In this document: piece by piece, positions 9,604-64,000 of the stretch | Position numbering within the stretch: the stretch's first letter is position 1 | Layout of the letters: every line of letters begins with the position of its first letter | Origin: a virus | IMG/VR virus record: IMGVR_UViG_3300002141_000156 | Location: 1 to 64,000 of that record | Strand: one strand, 5' to 3' | DNA: 64,000 bases | The notes under the pieces: generated by a model | Seen by the model: only the letters and a program-made list of their open reading frames with translations | The model's database searches: none | What the model was told of the DNA's origin: nothing | Program-made: the position numbers and the translations under genes

Positions 9604-9929
9604 TGTATTATATAAAAGTGAGTTAGTCCATTTTGTGTAATATACATAGTTTCACCATCCACCCTAAGATTTTCCGATAAAATTAAGCTCTTTATTCTTT
9701 TAACTAGATTTTGCTTAAAGGTTTCATCATTTAGCCTATCACCAAACACATATTTTAATGATTTTGACGAAAACTTTAGATTTTCAATAGTTAACTGCTT
9801 TTGTTTTATCTCAATAACCTTAATTATGTATTGGATTATGTCAAAGAGGATTGCAAGATCATCTTGTAAAACATCATCGGCATGAACATTAAGATAATAC
9901 TTTATTGGAAGATCAGAGCGCAGTTTCAT
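9600..9929 (-). CDS. Hypothetical protein, possible winged-helix fold
   Basis: 109 residues, helical, ending in a VDGETMYITQNGLTHFYII stretch that looks like the wing and last strand of a winged-helix domain. It overlaps the end of the UvsX C-half gene by 17 nt and the helicase start by 4 nt. Only one ATG is available near the start. Its place between UvsX and helicase suggests a replication or recombination accessory, but no function is recognised. Confidence 0.5.
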   Translation of the reverse strand: MKLRSDLPIKYYLNVHADDVLQDDLAILFDIIQYIIKVIEIKQKQLTIENLKFSSKSLKYVFGDRLNDETFKQNLVKRIKSLILSENLRVDGETMYITQNGLTHFYIIQ

Positions 9930-10608
9930 CGTCTTTTAAATTTTCAAGTTCATCATTTTCTAATTCGTCAATTCCATCTTGCGTCTCTGGAAATTTAAAA
10001 GTAGGCTTGATAATATTCTCATCAAGGTCATGTAATACAGTATCTGTGAATAATTTAGCAGAGAAAAAATCTCTAACCGGAACCTCATCACCATTATGAC
10101 GAATGATATAATTTTTTGCCTGTATGCTAGGCTTTACATACCAAACTTCTCCGCTTACTTCAAATTTATGGCATTTTGTTTGGTCTTCTGGCTTAAGCTT
10201 TGAAAATTCCTTTTCAGTTAATTTAGAACCACGAACAACTCCGCAATTTTCCCAATTAACGAATTGTTCAAGACCAACATATGGATTCATGCCTTTATGG
10301 AAAGAAATATGGAATTCAATATCTAGTGGTTTAGCTAATCGGTTCTTTCTAGTCTTAGAACGAACAATAATTCCAGTAGTAGTTTTAGCCTCATCGCGTA
10401 GTGTACCTTTACTTAGCATTAAGATAATTGATGCTGAGAATTCAGGACCTCCACCACCAGACATACCTTTTGGAGTATATTGATCCATTGAATTATGGGA
10501 GACAACGGTGTTTGATAGAATGTAGTGGTGGACATCCTTAACTTGTATATCATATACTTTTTCAGAATTGTCAATGGTTTTAACTGATTTAATTTTTATT
10601 TTATTCAT
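9913..10608 (-). CDS. uvsX: UvsX/RecA recombinase C-terminal half with split-intein C-segment
   Basis: 231 residues from the ATG at 10608. A longer reading from 10644 runs into the endonuclease gene and is rejected. Residues 1-39 are the C-terminal intein segment: VYDIQV strand, HHYILSN, then VVSHN with the His-Asn pair needed for Asn cyclisation. Ser40 is the +1 nucleophile. From there SMDQYTPKG and SGGGGPEF continue UvsX through the L2 loop to an acidic C-terminus. The 192-residue extein joined to the 206-residue N-half gives about 398 residues, close to T4 UvsX (391). The start overlaps the endonuclease stop by 8 nt. Confidence 0.9.
   Translation of the reverse strand: MNKIKIKSVKTIDNSEKVYDIQVKDVHHYILSNTVVSHNSMDQYTPKGMSGGGGPEFSASIILMLSKGTLRDEAKTTTGIIVRSKTRKNRLAKPLDIEFHISFHKGMNPYVGLEQFVNWENCGVVRGSKLTEKEFSKLKPEDQTKCHKFEVSGEVWYVKPSIQAKNYIIRHNGDEVPVRDFFSAKLFTDTVLHDLDENIIKPTFKFPETQDGIDELENDELENLKDDETAL
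10492..10608 (-). other. Split intein, C-terminal segment
   Basis: 39 codons, similar in size to the C-segments of natural split inteins such as gp41-1. It carries block F (VYDIQV to HHYIL) and block G (VVSHN then Ser). The cleavage point lies between Asn39 and Ser40, at 10491/10492. Confidence 0.9.
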
Positions 10609-11653
10609 AGCGTTTAAATAATATAGTATTTTTTTGTATATCAACTATTGCATAAATGAAGTTGATTCCTTTTTCTTTTACTGACTTTCTCTTATTTGGA
10701 TCAGCAAACTTATAAGTATAACTTGACTTAACTTCAATTACTAAATTTTTGGACTCAATATAGAAATCTGGTATGTATCTATGTTGCTTGCCGGTTTGAA
10801 TATATGTACAACCTATTTTTTGATACGATGCATACCCTATAGTTATTTCAGATTCATTAAACTTAGTTAATAAGTAATCGAGAAAAGTTGGTTCATAGCC
10901 TAATAAGTTAACTATTTTGCCACTAGGTAATATATATTTTTTGTACTTAAATTGTAGATGATATTCATTGAAAAACTTTTCTAAAAATTCATCATTTTGC
11001 ATGTGACTCGACACACCATATTTCTTAAGACATGTTTCTTTTATTTTATCTTTAGTTGCTTGTGTATGCATCACATTGTCAACACCATACTTTTCCAAGC
11101 AAGTCTGCTTACGTGCTTCTAGAGCTTGTTTAGAGCGTGCTTTATTTCCTTTTGAAACTTTTTCCTTAATTAATGAATTTTTATTCGGATTGTCATATCC
11201 GTAATTTAAAATGAAAGTTTCTATAACTTTTTTCCTACCTTCAATTGAATGAAGATTTGAAATATGTCCACCTCTCTCTAAATTTGTAGCTTCACGCTTT
11301 CTACGAATTTCAAGTTTCTCATCGTCCGTCCTTTTAGAAAAAGCTTTGACTAAAGAGGCTGACCTCTTTGCTTGCACTTCAGTTAATCCATTATTGAAAT
11401 CAGCTGCACATTTTTTGTTACAGAATTCAATTCGAATTTTTGGCAACGGTGTTCCACATTGCTTGCACTTAATTTGTTCAATCAATCTAGTTCGAATGTG
11501 AAACAATCGGAATGGAACATCTGAGCTTTCTGGAAGAAATGAAGTTTGTGAAATTATAAAATCATAGAATTCACGGTCCTTTCTAATTGCTTTGGATAAA
11601 GAAGCTAACGCTAAATTTGATGCTGCCATAATTCTTTGTAAAAAATCGTGCAT
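10601..11653 (-). CDS. Free-standing Vsr-like homing endonuclease
   Basis: 350 residues lying between the two UvsX halves. Features in order: a zinc-binding module with Cys63, Cys66, Cys78 and Cys82; a basic linker; two LEKYGV/LKKYGV NUMOD-like DNA-binding repeats around 186-222; and a C-terminal nuclease domain with YIPDFYIE then LVIEVKSS (Asp296, Glu307, Lys309), a Vsr/PD-(D/E)XK arrangement. This matches the endonuclease type reported at fractured phage genes with split inteins. It presumably cuts uninterrupted uvsX near the insertion site to spread the arrangement. An AGGAC ribosome site and a late-type promoter precede it, unlike the flanking genes. Confidence 0.85.
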   Translation of the reverse strand: MHDFLQRIMAASNLALASLSKAIRKDREFYDFIISQTSFLPESSDVPFRLFHIRTRLIEQIKCKQCGTPLPKIRIEFCNKKCAADFNNGLTEVQAKRSASLVKAFSKRTDDEKLEIRRKREATNLERGGHISNLHSIEGRKKVIETFILNYGYDNPNKNSLIKEKVSKGNKARSKQALEARKQTCLEKYGVDNVMHTQATKDKIKETCLKKYGVSSHMQNDEFLEKFFNEYHLQFKYKKYILPSGKIVNLLGYEPTFLDYLLTKFNESEITIGYASYQKIGCTYIQTGKQHRYIPDFYIESKNLVIEVKSSYTYKFADPNKRKSVKEKGINFIYAIVDIQKNTILFKRYE

Positions 11654-11665
11654 GTCCTTTTATTT

Positions 11666-11674
11666 TTATTTATC
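11666..11674 (-). promoter_or_regulatory. Late-type promoter for homing endonuclease
   Basis: GATAAATAA read leftward, in the 40-nt gap between the UvsX N-half and the endonuclease, with 12 nt to the ATG. The spacing is shorter than at the other late sites (20-25 nt), so confidence is lower. Confidence 0.4.
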
Positions 11675-11693
11675 ATAGATACGCAAGCATTTT

Positions 11694-12590
11694 TTATTTA
11701 CATATAATTTCAGATCCTTCGACTAAGTCAATTGCTTCGATCCAATGCTCTTCATTTGACCAATCATCTCCAACTAAGAACTTATGATTTGGCGTGCATT
11801 TAATAATCGTATCATCTTCTAATACGATTTCGATTAATTTTGCACAATCGTATTGAAATATGTTTTCAATCGGTTTTAATCCATCTAACGTTTCAACAAA
11901 TTGCCCCACCTCAACCTCAGAAATTTTAAGTTCACCATGATCTGTTAGAATCTTATGATCTCCTAAAATGCAGGCGTAAGTATGATTCGTGAAAATAAAT
12001 GGAACTTTAAGATTTGAAAGCTCAAGAGTAAAAGATTTGAATAGAGACCTCATCTCTTTAGAACGAAGACCCATATCTGCTGCATTTTTACCAGCATCCA
12101 TATCGCGTTTGCTCTTATCAGTATCTAACATACCTACTGAGTCGACAAATATTGCTGGTTTCAAACCTGGATTTTCTCGCATGGTTTCAATAAAGTCATT
12201 GATGAAAAATTTAACATCACTGATTAAACCCATACGTAAATATTTTAATCTGGCAAGATCTACTCCAAATTTTGTGTAGTCTGAACTATCAATTGCACCT
12301 TCGGTGTCAATATAGAAGACCATATAGTCTTTCTTTTGTAATTCACGAACTGCATTTAAACATAAGAAGGTTTTACCAGAGCCCGAGTCTCCAGCAATAC
12401 CAATACTTCGAGTATTTGGATAACCTCCGAAAACTGATCCGGACATTTGTGCATTTAATAGGTAGTTGCCGGTTGGGATATAATCATCGATATCTGAGAA
12501 TCCCATTAGTGTAATTTTGGTTTTTACTTTCTTTTCAAGCAAATCATTGAATTTGTTGAATGCTGAAAGTGCATCTTTTGCGCTTGCCAT
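11694..12590 (-). CDS. uvsX: UvsX/RecA recombinase N-terminal half with split-intein N-segment
   Basis: 298 residues. Residues 1-206 are the N-terminal part of a UvsX/RecA strand-exchange ATPase: Walker A GDSGSGKT (68-75), YIDTEGA (93-99) with the catalytic Glu region, Walker B AIFVDS (146-151), ending in FTNHTYA. Cys207 begins the intein: CILGDHKILT (block A), then IEIVLEDD and TPNHKFLV (block B, Thr266 and His269), ending after 92 intein residues with a stop. UvsX forms filaments on ssDNA and catalyses strand invasion in T4-type recombination-dependent replication. Without splicing this half lacks the L2 region and the C-terminus. Confidence 0.92.
   Translation of the reverse strand: MASAKDALSAFNKFNDLLEKKVKTKITLMGFSDIDDYIPTGNYLLNAQMSGSVFGGYPNTRSIGIAGDSGSGKTFLCLNAVRELQKKDYMVFYIDTEGAIDSSDYTKFGVDLARLKYLRMGLISDVKFFINDFIETMRENPGLKPAIFVDSVGMLDTDKSKRDMDAGKNAADMGLRSKEMRSLFKSFTLELSNLKVPFIFTNHTYACILGDHKILTDHGELKISEVEVGQFVETLDGLKPIENIFQYDCAKLIEIVLEDDTIIKCTPNHKFLVGDDWSNEEHWIEAIDLVEGSEIICK
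11697..11972 (-). other. Split intein, N-terminal segment
   Basis: 92 codons starting at the TGC for Cys207 of the UvsX N-half. Hint-domain block A (Cys1, ILGDHKI) and block B (TPNH) are both intact, so splicing activity is expected. Together with the 39-residue C-segment it forms a mini-intein of about 131 residues. Confidence 0.9.
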
Positions 12591-14414: not shown

Positions 14415-15839
14415 CTATAGTGAATTTTTTAGTTTTTTTATTTGACCTTGAGTACCAATACGTTCATTGTATAATCGGGTCAAGATTGTTCGAGCCGCAG
14501 AATCATTATCTGATGAAAATAGAGTATCGTTCTTGGTATGTATTTCACCACCTTTTAGTCGAACCTGATCACGCTTACCTAAGTAAGTATCTGGTGAAAT
14601 ATTAAACTGAATTTGAATATTTGGGTACATTGATGAAAAATCATAACATGCAATAGCATTATAGTGACCTGGAGTTGGTTTTTTAACATATGCTCCTTCA
14701 TATGTTGCAGTATTATCCTTTTGTTCTCCCCATGGAAGTTTCATCATTTTAAGATTCTTATTTAAGAACTCACGACACATTAGGATTTCAGCAACATACA
14801 CTGGACTAAATACTTTATTTACTTCGACTTGTGCAACGTTTGCAATTGAATATGCAACATCTAATAGCGAAAGCTTATCTTCAATTAACTTAACTAGAAC
14901 AACATCCACTACGTTATAGAGAGTAAATAAATATGTGTCTTTTTGGAATGCCAAGAATGATGGATAATCATGCTTGAGTTTATTTGCACCAAGCACAATA
15001 CCTGCAATATAATCCAATTTGTAATTTTCAACAACTTTATATGGTTTAAGTTTTTCAAACACTTGCATATAATCTAGAACTCCAAGGTGAGCAGGTATCT
15101 TATTTTTAGAAATAAGGGTACGAGACGGAAGATTAAGAGTAGTATCAATCTTCATGTTCTTACCGCGATTCATCAAATACTTCCAGTCAAAGTCAGTTAC
15201 ATTCCACCCAGTAACAAAAGATAGCTTCGGTACAATTTGATGGAAATAAAAGTTTAGAAGCTCAGTTTCAGTTTGGAAGAATTTATATTTGATTTTAAAA
15301 TCTTGCTGAAATAGAGCAGCATCTTGTGGGCGCAGTGGCTTTATTTTTCTAAAATAATCATTTACGTCTTTTTCCATACGTATTATATCATCAGCTGAAA
15401 GTCCAGCAGGATCGTCATCGTTATGTAAAATGGAAAGAATATATGTTACGTTATCTTCGTTACAGAATGAAATTAGTCCAACTGGCATTCTTGCACGTTC
15501 AGGATCAGGAAATGAATCATCAATTAATTTAATCTCAATATCAAGATATGTCTTCTTTGGAAAGTTGTCAAAATTATAGACAATTTCAAGTTCTTCAGCA
15601 GAAAGTTTCTCTTGCACTAATTCCTGAATTCGAAACTGAGTCATATATCTACCCTCAGTTGGACTCTTCTTCACATATTTGCCATCCCAATTTTTGGTGG
15701 CAGTTTTTGTTTTAGATTCAACCCAATTAAAGAGTTCATGATCGACTAATCTCTTTCTAATGAATTCGATTTTTCCTGCTTGATTATAGTAGGAAATAGC
15801 TAAGGTATTATCAGTAAGTACTTCTGCTCCAATTATCAT
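14415..15839 (-). CDS. 43: Family B DNA polymerase, N-terminal half (exonuclease and motif A)
   Basis: 474 residues, about half of T4 gp43 (898). The proofreading domain is complete: Exo I LDIE (Asp100, Glu102), Exo II GWNVTDFD (Asn213, Asp218), Exo III YNVVD (Tyr308, Asp312). Polymerase motif A is present as YDFSSMYP (Asp400). The protein stops at residue 474, after the LYNER helix, so motif B (KxxxNSxYG) and motif C (YGDTDS) are absent. No downstream gene in the window supplies them. It is probably one part of a split polymerase, as known in some T4-type phages, with the other part elsewhere in the genome. Confidence 0.88.
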   Translation of the reverse strand: MIIGAEVLTDNTLAISYYNQAGKIEFIRKRLVDHELFNWVESKTKTATKNWDGKYVKKSPTEGRYMTQFRIQELVQEKLSAEELEIVYNFDNFPKKTYLDIEIKLIDDSFPDPERARMPVGLISFCNEDNVTYILSILHNDDDPAGLSADDIIRMEKDVNDYFRKIKPLRPQDAALFQQDFKIKYKFFQTETELLNFYFHQIVPKLSFVTGWNVTDFDWKYLMNRGKNMKIDTTLNLPSRTLISKNKIPAHLGVLDYMQVFEKLKPYKVVENYKLDYIAGIVLGANKLKHDYPSFLAFQKDTYLFTLYNVVDVVLVKLIEDKLSLLDVAYSIANVAQVEVNKVFSPVYVAEILMCREFLNKNLKMMKLPWGEQKDNTATYEGAYVKKPTPGHYNAIACYDFSSMYPNIQIQFNISPDTYLGKRDQVRLKGGEIHTKNDTLFSSDNDSAARTILTRLYNERIGTQGQIKKLKNSL

Positions 15840-23557: not shown

Positions 23558-24307
23558 TTATAGCGAATTCACTATTTTATCAACTTTATTAGAAAAAGTT
23601 GCGTCTGGGTAACGACCTAGGGCATATTTTACCCATGTTTCAAGTACAATTTGATATTCATCAGCGGTTATGTACTTAGATTGTACAAATGGCTGTAAAT
23701 AATCAGCAAATACATAATCTAGTGGAGTTTCAAGATATTGTGACCGAGCATACATGCCCTCAACCATTGACTCAACCTCATCGTTAAGTAAAAAATACTT
23801 ATAGTTCTTCTTTGCGGCACCGCGAGTCTTAGAATCTGATGGGTTTTCAGTAAATGGGTCTTTTTGAATTCCAACTTGATCGACATGGTTAAGTTCATGT
23901 GTCAAAATATCGATTATTCTAGCGTGCAGCATCTCATATAATCCAGGCTCGGCCTTTGGATTCATAATAAGAGTTATAATTATTTCAGGAATCATTAAAT
24001 CGCCACTATTGACTTTGGTATTTGCGTCAATACAATACCCATGCTTAGAATAATTAAGTTGCTCCCATGGTAAATTCTTAAAGTGTTCATCTGATTTAAC
24101 AGTTAATGTAGAATCTCTTCGTAATTCAAGTTTTAAATCAAATGAAAATGGCTCTCTAAATTCCATACCACCAAATGTCTCATAGTGATCTGACTCTTGG
24201 CCATGAGCAGCGCGTATCTTTTTAATTAGCTTTTGAGCAAGATCTTTAATAAAATCTTGTTTGAAGTCATCTGACTCGTTTATAAAAGAGGTGAATGATT
24301 TAAGCAC
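23558..24307 (-). CDS. Zincin metallopeptidase with capsid-targeting-like N-terminus
   Basis: 249 residues. HELNH (137-141) in the hydrophobic context DILTHELNHVDQ is a zinc-binding HExxH motif, and NDEVES/MVEGMY (176-185) offers glutamates for the third ligand. The N-terminus, MLKSFTSFINES, closely parallels the T4 internal-protein capsid-targeting sequence (MKTYQEFIAEA), with INE before Ser matching the prohead-protease rule (Leu/Ile)-x-Glu. This suggests a protease packaged in the head and injected. It follows the 24307-24798 gene with a 1-nt overlap under a late-type promoter. Zincin assignment is fairly firm; packaging is inferred. Confidence 0.7.
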   Translation of the reverse strand: MLKSFTSFINESDDFKQDFIKDLAQKLIKKIRAAHGQESDHYETFGGMEFREPFSFDLKLELRRDSTLTVKSDEHFKNLPWEQLNYSKHGYCIDANTKVNSGDLMIPEIIITLIMNPKAEPGLYEMLHARIIDILTHELNHVDQVGIQKDPFTENPSDSKTRGAAKKNYKYFLLNDEVESMVEGMYARSQYLETPLDYVFADYLQPFVQSKYITADEYQIVLETWVKYALGRYPDATFSNKVDKIVNSL

Positions 24308-24798
24308 TATTTCTTATGTTTTATAAAGGTGACTTTCATGTCATCTGTTGTAGGCGAGCCGTCTTTTGTGAAGATGATTTGAATCTCTGGTTCACGAGTT
24401 CCAAAAATATTTGATGAAACTGCATTTTTTAACTTTTCAATAAATGGTAAATCATCGTCTCCAATATTTACTTTGTCTCCAGTTACGATATTTACTATAT
24501 TTGTACGACGGAGTTCAAGAACAGTATCTGAAATCTTATTTTTACTAGTAGACTGTATGTTTTTATCTGCCCACTCTTTAATTTCTTCAGGAGTAACCGA
24601 ATATGATGGAAAATCAACTGCCATGCTACCATCTGGGTATTTTCGTTTACGAATATTATCGCTATCTGCATCATCAATAAAGATAAAATGTAAGTGCTGT
24701 GCTTTCTTTGGAGCTGCAGAAGCTTCCATTCCTGGCATAGCTGCTGCCATGTCCTGTTCAAAAAGAAAGCTATAAAATCCTTTAATATGTTTCTTCAT
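24307..24798 (-). CDS. Putative head-packaged protein, partner of zincin gene
   Basis: 163 residues, no known domain. It begins MKKHIKGFYSFLFEQD, where F-x-x-F-L-F-E resembles a capsid-targeting peptide ending in a (Leu/Ile)-x-Glu prohead-protease site. A Met/Ala/Pro-rich linker follows, then an alpha/beta domain from about residue 35 (HLHFIFIDDADSDN). It is the first gene of a two-gene late unit with the zincin. Role unknown; an internal or ejected protein is the leading guess. Confidence 0.55.
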   Translation of the reverse strand: MKKHIKGFYSFLFEQDMAAAMPGMEASAAPKKAQHLHFIFIDDADSDNIRKRKYPDGSMAVDFPSYSVTPEEIKEWADKNIQSTSKNKISDTVLELRRTNIVNIVTGDKVNIGDDDLPFIEKLKNAVSSNIFGTREPEIQIIFTKDGSPTTDDMKVTFIKHKK

Positions 24799-24822: not shown

Positions 24823-24832
24823 ATTATTTATC
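24823..24832 (-). promoter_or_regulatory. Late-type promoter for the zincin operon
   Basis: GATAAATAAT read leftward, 24 nt before the start at 24798, and immediately beyond the terminator of the S1-like gene. Confidence 0.55.
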
Positions 24833-24838
24833 TAAATA

Positions 24839-24870
24839 AAAAAGCAGCAATATTAATATTGCTGCTTTTT
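24839..24870. terminator. Palindromic hairpin terminator
   Basis: Perfect 32-nt palindrome centred on TTAA at 24854/24855, with core GCAGCAATA and flanking A and T tracts. It ends the leftward S1-like transcript. Confidence 0.9.
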
Positions 24871-33113: not shown

Positions 33114-33866
33114 TCAGGGCATTTGTAACTGATAGTCTTCTACTACAGTCAACCCTGATAGTTTTAAAATTACTTGAGCAACTGCAAGAACATCCTTTTG
33201 ACAATATTCAGTGATTCGTTGGATATCTCGTTCTTTCCAAAATACATCACCGACTTCATCTCCACGAATATCATCCTTTGGTGTTTCTAAACCAAGTGAA
33301 GTAGCTAGGAGTTCTAATGAACTGAAGCCCTCTTGCCATGCACCAAAACTCCAAATTTCGGAAGTATCAATAAGTGGCATTTCCCAAGGTTTTAAATTAG
33401 TTAATTGTAATCCTTTTGGTAATGGCGTACTTGCCATGATTAATCGCTTACACATCATTGGAACATCAAATCGTTTGATATTATGTCCAGTAAATTTATA
33501 TGCAGCAAATTTAGTGAATACTGTGCTGATGCCACTAAGAACGTCGGCTTCATCAAATGAAGAATAACTCTTGATAATTAATGATGGTACTTGGCCAAGA
33601 ATTGGATCTTCGCTGAAAGTGACGCGACCAAATGATGCGCAGACAATTCTGCTAAATTCAGGAGTAAGAGCAGCTTTTGCTTCATATAACTGCTCATCGC
33701 TCATTTCTTTATTTTCATCGAATCTAGAACGAAGATAATTACATCGTTTGCTCCATAGGTCAGCCATTCTTGGATTTGCAGCATTTAATCCATCTAATGT
33801 TGGAAAAGTAGATGCTGTCTCCAGGTCAAAAAAGACCATTTTTTGTATTTCAGCGAGTGTGTACAT
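33114..33866 (-). CDS. DnaQ-like 3'-5' exonuclease
   Basis: 250 residues of the DEDD exonuclease fold: Exo I FFDLET (12-17), Exo II GHNIKRFD near 127, and Exo III YCQKDV near 224 (DEDDy-type Tyr before the last Asp). It hydrolyses 3' ends of DNA or RNA. The phage polymerase half already has its own proofreading site, so this is a separate activity. First gene of the exonuclease-nuclease-GroEL operon. Confidence 0.82.
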   Translation of the reverse strand: MYTLAEIQKMVFFDLETASTFPTLDGLNAANPRMADLWSKRCNYLRSRFDENKEMSDEQLYEAKAALTPEFSRIVCASFGRVTFSEDPILGQVPSLIIKSYSSFDEADVLSGISTVFTKFAAYKFTGHNIKRFDVPMMCKRLIMASTPLPKGLQLTNLKPWEMPLIDTSEIWSFGAWQEGFSSLELLATSLGLETPKDDIRGDEVGDVFWKERDIQRITEYCQKDVLAVAQVILKLSGLTVVEDYQLQMP

Positions 33867-63436: not shown

Positions 63437-64000
63437 TTATATAAGCGTACCGGTTCCCTGATCAGTAACTTTTGCGGCCAGCTTTCTAAAAAGATCGCGG
63501 CCACCCTTATGTATACGAGGTTCAAAGAATCTCAACACATCCATTAGGCCTGCAGAGTTCTTAAGTTTAAGAATTTTAGGGTCAACCGTTGCAATGTCTT
63601 GCTGCACAGAGTCAACATATACATTTACAAAAAATTCACCGAATTTTGTATCAATATATTCAACGAATTTGCGATCTTCGATTTCGGAAAGGATAATTTC
63701 ATAATACTCTTCTGGATAAAATTCCATCGCACGTTGTGCCCATAGATATCCACTATGTCCATGTAATTCTTCTTGGCTTTTAAATTTACTACGTTCACCA
63801 GCAATTGCCTTTATTTCAGTTGGTGTTAAGACATAAAGAAGATCAAAAAACAGTTTTAGCGCAGGAGATTTCATCAAGTATGGATATGCCTCTGCAGCAT
63901 ACTGGGTCGTCATACCAAGACGATAGTCTTTAAAGAAATTTGGATCTTTATAATCATTGTATGCATGCATCAATTCATGATTTAAAATATCGTCCAAATA
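63437..64000 (-). CDS. HExxH metallopeptidase-like protein, 5' end outside window
   Basis: About 188 visible codons on the minus strand. A TTG at 63997 could serve as start, but the frame remains open to the window edge, so the gene probably continues. DILNHELMHAYND holds an HExxH zinc-binding motif in the same context as the zincin at 23558-24307 (DILTHELNHVDQ). The rest is helical and ends in GRDLFRKLAAKVTDQG. It converges on the tail-fibre gene with only 6 nt between them. Whether it has a capsid-targeting N-terminus cannot be seen. Confidence 0.6.
   Translation of the reverse strand, partial: YLDDILNHELMHAYNDYKDPNFFKDYRLGMTTQYAAEAYPYLMKSPALKLFFDLLYVLTPTEIKAIAGERSKFKSQEELHGHSGYLWAQRAMEFYPEEYYEIILSEIEDRKFVEYIDTKFGEFFVNVYVDSVQQDIATVDPKILKLKNSAGLMDVLRFFEPRIHKGGRDLFRKLAAKVTDQGTGTLI

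Follow-up and report, generated by a model that had tools for sequence, protein, structure and literature searches.

A late gene pair of a probable T4-like phage encodes a putative zincin metalloprotease and a partner with leaders of the T4 capsid-targeting form

A late two-gene unit in a virus record of IMG/VR encodes a zincin-like protein, termed here zincin A, and a smaller partner, and both proteins begin with a short leader that probably directs them into the phage head. The window that we analysed is a 64,000-nucleotide stretch (positions 1-64,000) of the record IMGVR_UViG_3300002141_000156, which in full comprises 131 kb and 168 proteins. The overall reading that we lean towards is a late, coupled unit of head cargo that is loaded through a repeat-like leader, cut and probably ejected, where docking, cleavage, ejection, catalysis and the target are all what we infer from the data. 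Each leader would dock in the prohead core by resembling the repeats of a protease-scaffold fusion ([FY]xx[FY][ILV]xE, with a 14-residue period), a gp21-type protease would then cut it after Ile/Leu-x-Glu, leaving the partner and zincin A free inside the head, and both would probably leave the head together with the DNA. Early in infection, zincin A would act on some protein as a minimal metalloprotease (HExxH and a downstream Glu), and the partner, whose leader is never lost, probably holds or escorts it.

The gene of zincin A lies on the minus strand at 23558-24307, encodes 249 amino acids from a GTG start and overlaps the stop codon of the partner gene by one base (TAGTG), which would make the two genes translationally coupled. 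The partner (24307-24798, minus strand; 163 amino acids, ATG start) consists in its AF2 model of a leader helix, a disordered Pro/Ala-rich linker (residues ~19-31) and a folded domain. Both open reading frames, each with its Phe-rich leader and Ile/Leu-x-Glu site, had been put forward in the original prediction and were confirmed from the sequence. The zincin A leader MLKSFTSFINE (24275-24307, minus strand) is predicted to be cut after Glu11, before Ser12, and carries the positions F5-F8-I9-E11; the partner leader MKKHIKGFYSFLFE, followed by Q (24757-24798, minus strand), has F8-F11-L12-E14 and a predicted cut after Glu14. A protein search followed by a profile search recovered zincin A in 48 IMG/VR loci, and the partner is encoded directly upstream wherever the locus extends far enough for it to be seen. 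In two relatives (L179 and L180), the pair sits in a small island of other leader-bearing genes (MLNFNQFINES and similar).

In the T4 internal protein IPIII, targeting depends on residues 4 and 7 and processing on residues 8 and 10 (PMC9026906), and further cargo carrying the capsid-targeting sequence is known in T4 (PMC9026906; PMC3012670). The IPIII N-terminus MKTYQEFIAE places these as Y4-F7-I8-E10, exactly the spacing found in zincin A and the partner, so that the proposed T4 internal-protein form of the leaders is upheld. Exchange of the IPIII Glu for Asp prevents processing and leaves targeting intact. Of 30 aligned relatives, 28 retain all four key positions of the zincin A leader; it is absent from the diverged relatives L003 and G014, degenerate in L054 and lost or unclear in G021. 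The partner leader is kept in 30/30 with an invariant Glu14, and is present also in G014 and G021. Conservation among the aligned relatives is 0.70 for the leader columns versus 0.49 for the linker that follows. The strict motif [FY]xx[FYW][ILV]xE[ASGNQKD], which was tightened and fixed after looking at the sequences, occurs within the first 26 residues of 12 of the 168 proteins and in 0 of 1,330 internal windows (Fisher p = 2.8e-12), and a looser motif in 13/168 N-termini versus 11/1,036 internal windows (p = 3e-6) and in 1 of 291 shadow ORFs. In a T4 control scan covering 150 of 169 kb, the loose motif picked IPII, IPIII and gp61.1 together with one false match, gp31, and missed IPI. The leader motif is found at N-termini far beyond chance, and every sequence test available supports the leaders as T4-type capsid-targeting sequences. 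One could still take them for generic amphipathic helices that make membrane or protein contacts and have no part in head targeting, given that the case for targeting comes from sequence and that short motifs recur by chance at the internal background rate. We find this highly improbable: the cleavage Glu, for which an amphipathic helix has no need, is invariant or nearly so, the contrast between N-termini and internal windows is as strong as given above, and matching repeats are found in the protease-scaffold fusion. The role that we assign to the leader, very probably, is head targeting.

The presence of a gp21-like protease had been suggested as a check, and it gave a positive result outside the record and a negative one within it: the S77 (gp21-type) family PF03420 is encoded by 6 of the 8 relative records tested and by Flavobacterium phage immuto, and is absent from the window's record. 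The record also holds neither gp20 nor gp23, and it is colinear with the relative G001 at ~76-200 kb, where gp20, gp21 and gp23 lie elsewhere (12-57 kb); the record is thus a fragment missing the head-gene part, which explains the absence of the protease. In G001 and G002, the S77 protease is followed by a gp23-type capsid gene (PF07068, E 2.2e-34 in G001; by similarity in G002). The protease of the relatives is the N-terminal part of a ~660-aa protein whose scaffold-like C-terminal part contains ~11 tandem 14-residue repeats, for example YSEYIKENLNNSIK. Leader-motif matches number 6-11 per protein in 58/58 full-length fusions, and no other protein of G001 and G002 has more than two; the fusions of the megaphages L107 and L108 (642 and 735 kb) carry 11-14 near-perfect YSEYIAE repeats. 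With a matrix derived from the repeats, four N-terminal leaders rank 1, 2, 4 and 5 among the 40,226 heptapeptides of the window's record; the leaders of zincin A and the partner fall outside the top 40, so that the link to the repeats is carried by the leader family collectively.

That the scaffold-protease of the relatives carries the leader motif as tandem repeats suggests that cargo may gain entry to the prohead by imitating a repeat of the scaffold. We know of no settled account of how the ten-residue tag of T4 recognises the prohead core, to which these repeats would suggest a simple answer. The S77 protease is probably the enzyme that cuts the leader, and head packaging with leader removal is a prediction that the sequences support well. 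A broader proposal, which we regard as evenly balanced, is that in a lineage reaching the largest known phage genomes the head core is a protease fused to leader-like repeats, and that a range of enzymes, among them zincins, an ADP-ribosyltransferase and a Nudix enzyme, is loaded by a single repeat copy each. If true, the list of head cargo would be readable from the genome. The leader motif also offers a rule by which head cargo may be predicted from sequence in uncultured phages and mega-phages. Within the partial literature coverage of this work, we found neither a zincin bearing a T4-type leader nor the repeat-bearing fusion described.

Of the 12 proteins in the strict-motif set, two have an HExxH site, one is a Nudix enzyme and one an ADP-ribosyltransferase. 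Beside zincin A, the second HExxH protein is zincin B (321 aa, HELMH, leader MLKNFNQFINEA), encoded on the minus strand at 63437-64000 of the window, with the whole gene at 63437-64402 of the record. The ADP-ribosyltransferase belongs to the ART-PolyVal family PF18760 (G000:C1:123428-124009, minus strand), starts with MSIKSFSQWLVES and is an Alt-like candidate, T4 Alt being an ADP-ribosyltransferase. Zincin C, the third HExxH protein, carries a leader of variant form in which Glu-Ala is invariant across six aligned sequences, and short N-terminal leaders of related form are carried by its relatives in 642- and 635-kb megaphages; all three HExxH ORFs of the record therefore have a leader of some form. 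A grouping of zincins A, B and C into one family was considered and dropped, as the profile comparison was weak. Apart from this set, a second leader form was seen on the endolysin-like proteins L007:15177-16730 (NYKNWKRLYEA) and L009:345-1124 (YYAWTRINEQ), and also at L008:4209-6362 and L008:8691-10112. It resembles the gp23 N-terminus of the relatives (WKPVLES) and is possibly a W-type head leader.

The late expression claimed for the unit is well grounded in consensus evidence. A late-type promoter element, GATAAATA (24825-24832, minus strand), is placed 34 nt ahead of the ATG of the partner and directly after GCAGCAATATTAATATTGCTGC (24844-24865), a terminator-like hairpin with a T-run that separates the unit from an S1-domain gene; relatives have hairpins at the equivalent site. 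The element is conserved ahead of the partner gene in distant relatives, where the AGATAAATAATA-type sequence recurs, and sites similar to AGATAAATAATA occur before the genes of the tail sheath and baseplate. This conservation, together with the similar sites before sheath and baseplate genes, is what supports late expression. A scan for sigma-70 promoters gave nothing useful.

The HExxH site reported earlier for zincin A is indeed clear (HELNH, residues 137-141; 23885-23899, minus strand) and is lost in none of the relatives, with H137, E138 and H141 invariant in the alignment of 30 sequences. Equally invariant is Glu177 (23777-23779, minus strand), which lies in a helix (175-192) after the HExxH in the AF2 model, has an equivalent in the distant immuto protein and is likely the third, acidic zinc ligand. 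The structural check suggested for zincin A was answered in part: the model is confident (pLDDT 86.6, pTM 0.85; the leader poorly ordered) and places the HExxH helix and the Glu helix in the order expected of a zincin, and the PDB fold search returned no significant match. The same search with the partner model gave none either, no credible Pfam or PHROG family was obtained for either protein, none of the Pfam peptidase families matched zincin A at the curated cut-off, and a match in a viral library is just a close relative of unknown function. Zincin A is probably an active metalloprotease. The roles might also be reversed, with the partner as the real cargo or head protein and zincin A as a processing enzyme or pseudoenzyme that is carried along with it or acts on it. 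The two genes are tightly coupled, and the partner keeps its leader in 30/30 and also in G014 and G021, where zincin A has no clear one; that said, zincin A has its own leader with the four key positions in 28/30 and an invariant H-E-H with Glu177, and we consider this reversal improbable.

The distribution of the pair was surveyed in 18 contigs that were chosen by the protease fusion, not by the zincin. Zincin A is present in 7 of the 18, exactly those with a whole gp32 gene; an eighth gp32 match is cut by the contig end, and the pair is thus found in 7/7 records with a complete gp32. Zincin A and its partner are near-core, unlike the sporadic zincins B (1/12) and C (0/12, from a search without a positive control). 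Near-core status is as compatible with a structural or maturation role as with takeover; it weakens the case for a variable anti-defence weapon and leaves room for a role in maturation. Zincin A would, on the latter account, be a second head-maturation protease, brought in by its leader and its partner, that trims core or shell proteins, and there would be no injected effector. The presence of the pair in 7/7 records with a complete gp32 and its synteny are what one expects of an assembly gene, and a zincin conserved in group 1 jumbo phages has been proposed to act in maturation (PMC7824862). However, zincin A sits in the gp32/replication cluster away from the head genes, its sister cargo with the leader (ART, Nudix) resembles takeover enzymes, and the S77 protease with its cleavage sites could already explain head processing, so that we hold a maturation role to be unlikely. 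Ejection of zincin A and the partner into the host is what we consider moderately probable; a specifically anti-defence function for zincin A is doubtful.

Among known systems, the closest are the T4 internal proteins IPI-IPIII and Alt, which share with the present unit the short leader, its four key positions, the Ile/Leu-x-Glu site and the late-type promoter, as well as a T4-type capsid with an S77 protease (here in the relatives) and an ADP-ribosyltransferase among the leader-bearing proteins. Unlike in T4, there are at least 12 leader-bearing genes here, and the leader matches the tandem repeat of the relatives' protease-scaffold fusion. Zincins are, to our knowledge, not found among the internal proteins of T4. 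The head proteins of SPN3US and phiKZ likewise have N-terminal propeptides cut after Glu, and group 1 jumbo phages have the zincin proposed for maturation (PMC7824862, PMC10052503); the present leaders differ in their T4-type Ile/Leu-x-Glu site and short length of 11-14 residues, and the jumbo zincins are likened by description.

Zincin-like metallopeptidase (MPTase) domains in phage polyvalent proteins have been proposed to be delivered to the host (PMC5512222). They resemble zincin A in the HExxH with a Glu in the next helix and in their predicted delivery by phages (PMC5512222), but zincin A is a stand-alone protein of 249 aa with a T4-type leader and no Pfam peptidase match, and it has neither the multidomain chain nor the known MPTase family by which polyvalent proteins are recognised. 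The original prediction of a new kind of injected takeover or anti-defence tool must be narrowed accordingly: an injected phage zincin was already proposed with the polyvalent proteins, and a near-core pair fits an anti-defence weapon less well. Our finding points to proteases as phage-delivered enzymes. The immuto relative of zincin A is a 907-aa multidomain protein, as polyvalent proteins are (L004:5724-8447, annotated as NadR), that has nucleotidyltransferase-like and NadR-like parts together with two HExxH segments, and looks like a polyvalent protein itself. Immuto was set aside as a full model of the present system, its zincin part lying inside this long protein and such leaders being found in 0/228 of its proteins.

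The phage is T4-like and its host probably belongs to Bacteroidota, because immuto, the one isolate in which a relative of zincin A could be detected, is a Flavobacterium phage and because phages of Prevotella and Tenacibaculum rank among the nearer matches to the S77 protease. A search of bacterial genomes for a clue to the host found no relative, and a search among phages gave no near-DNA match. A uvsX-like recombinase gene is present in two pieces (9913-10644 and 11694-12590, minus strand), both of which match a single gene of G001; between them, in the region 9913-12590 (minus strand), lies a homing-endonuclease-like ORF (10601-11653), likely an intron or insertion. The DNA polymerase has just 474 aa (14415-15839, minus strand) and a 3'-5' exonuclease-like ORF lies separately at 33114-33866 (minus strand); the polymerase is possibly split.
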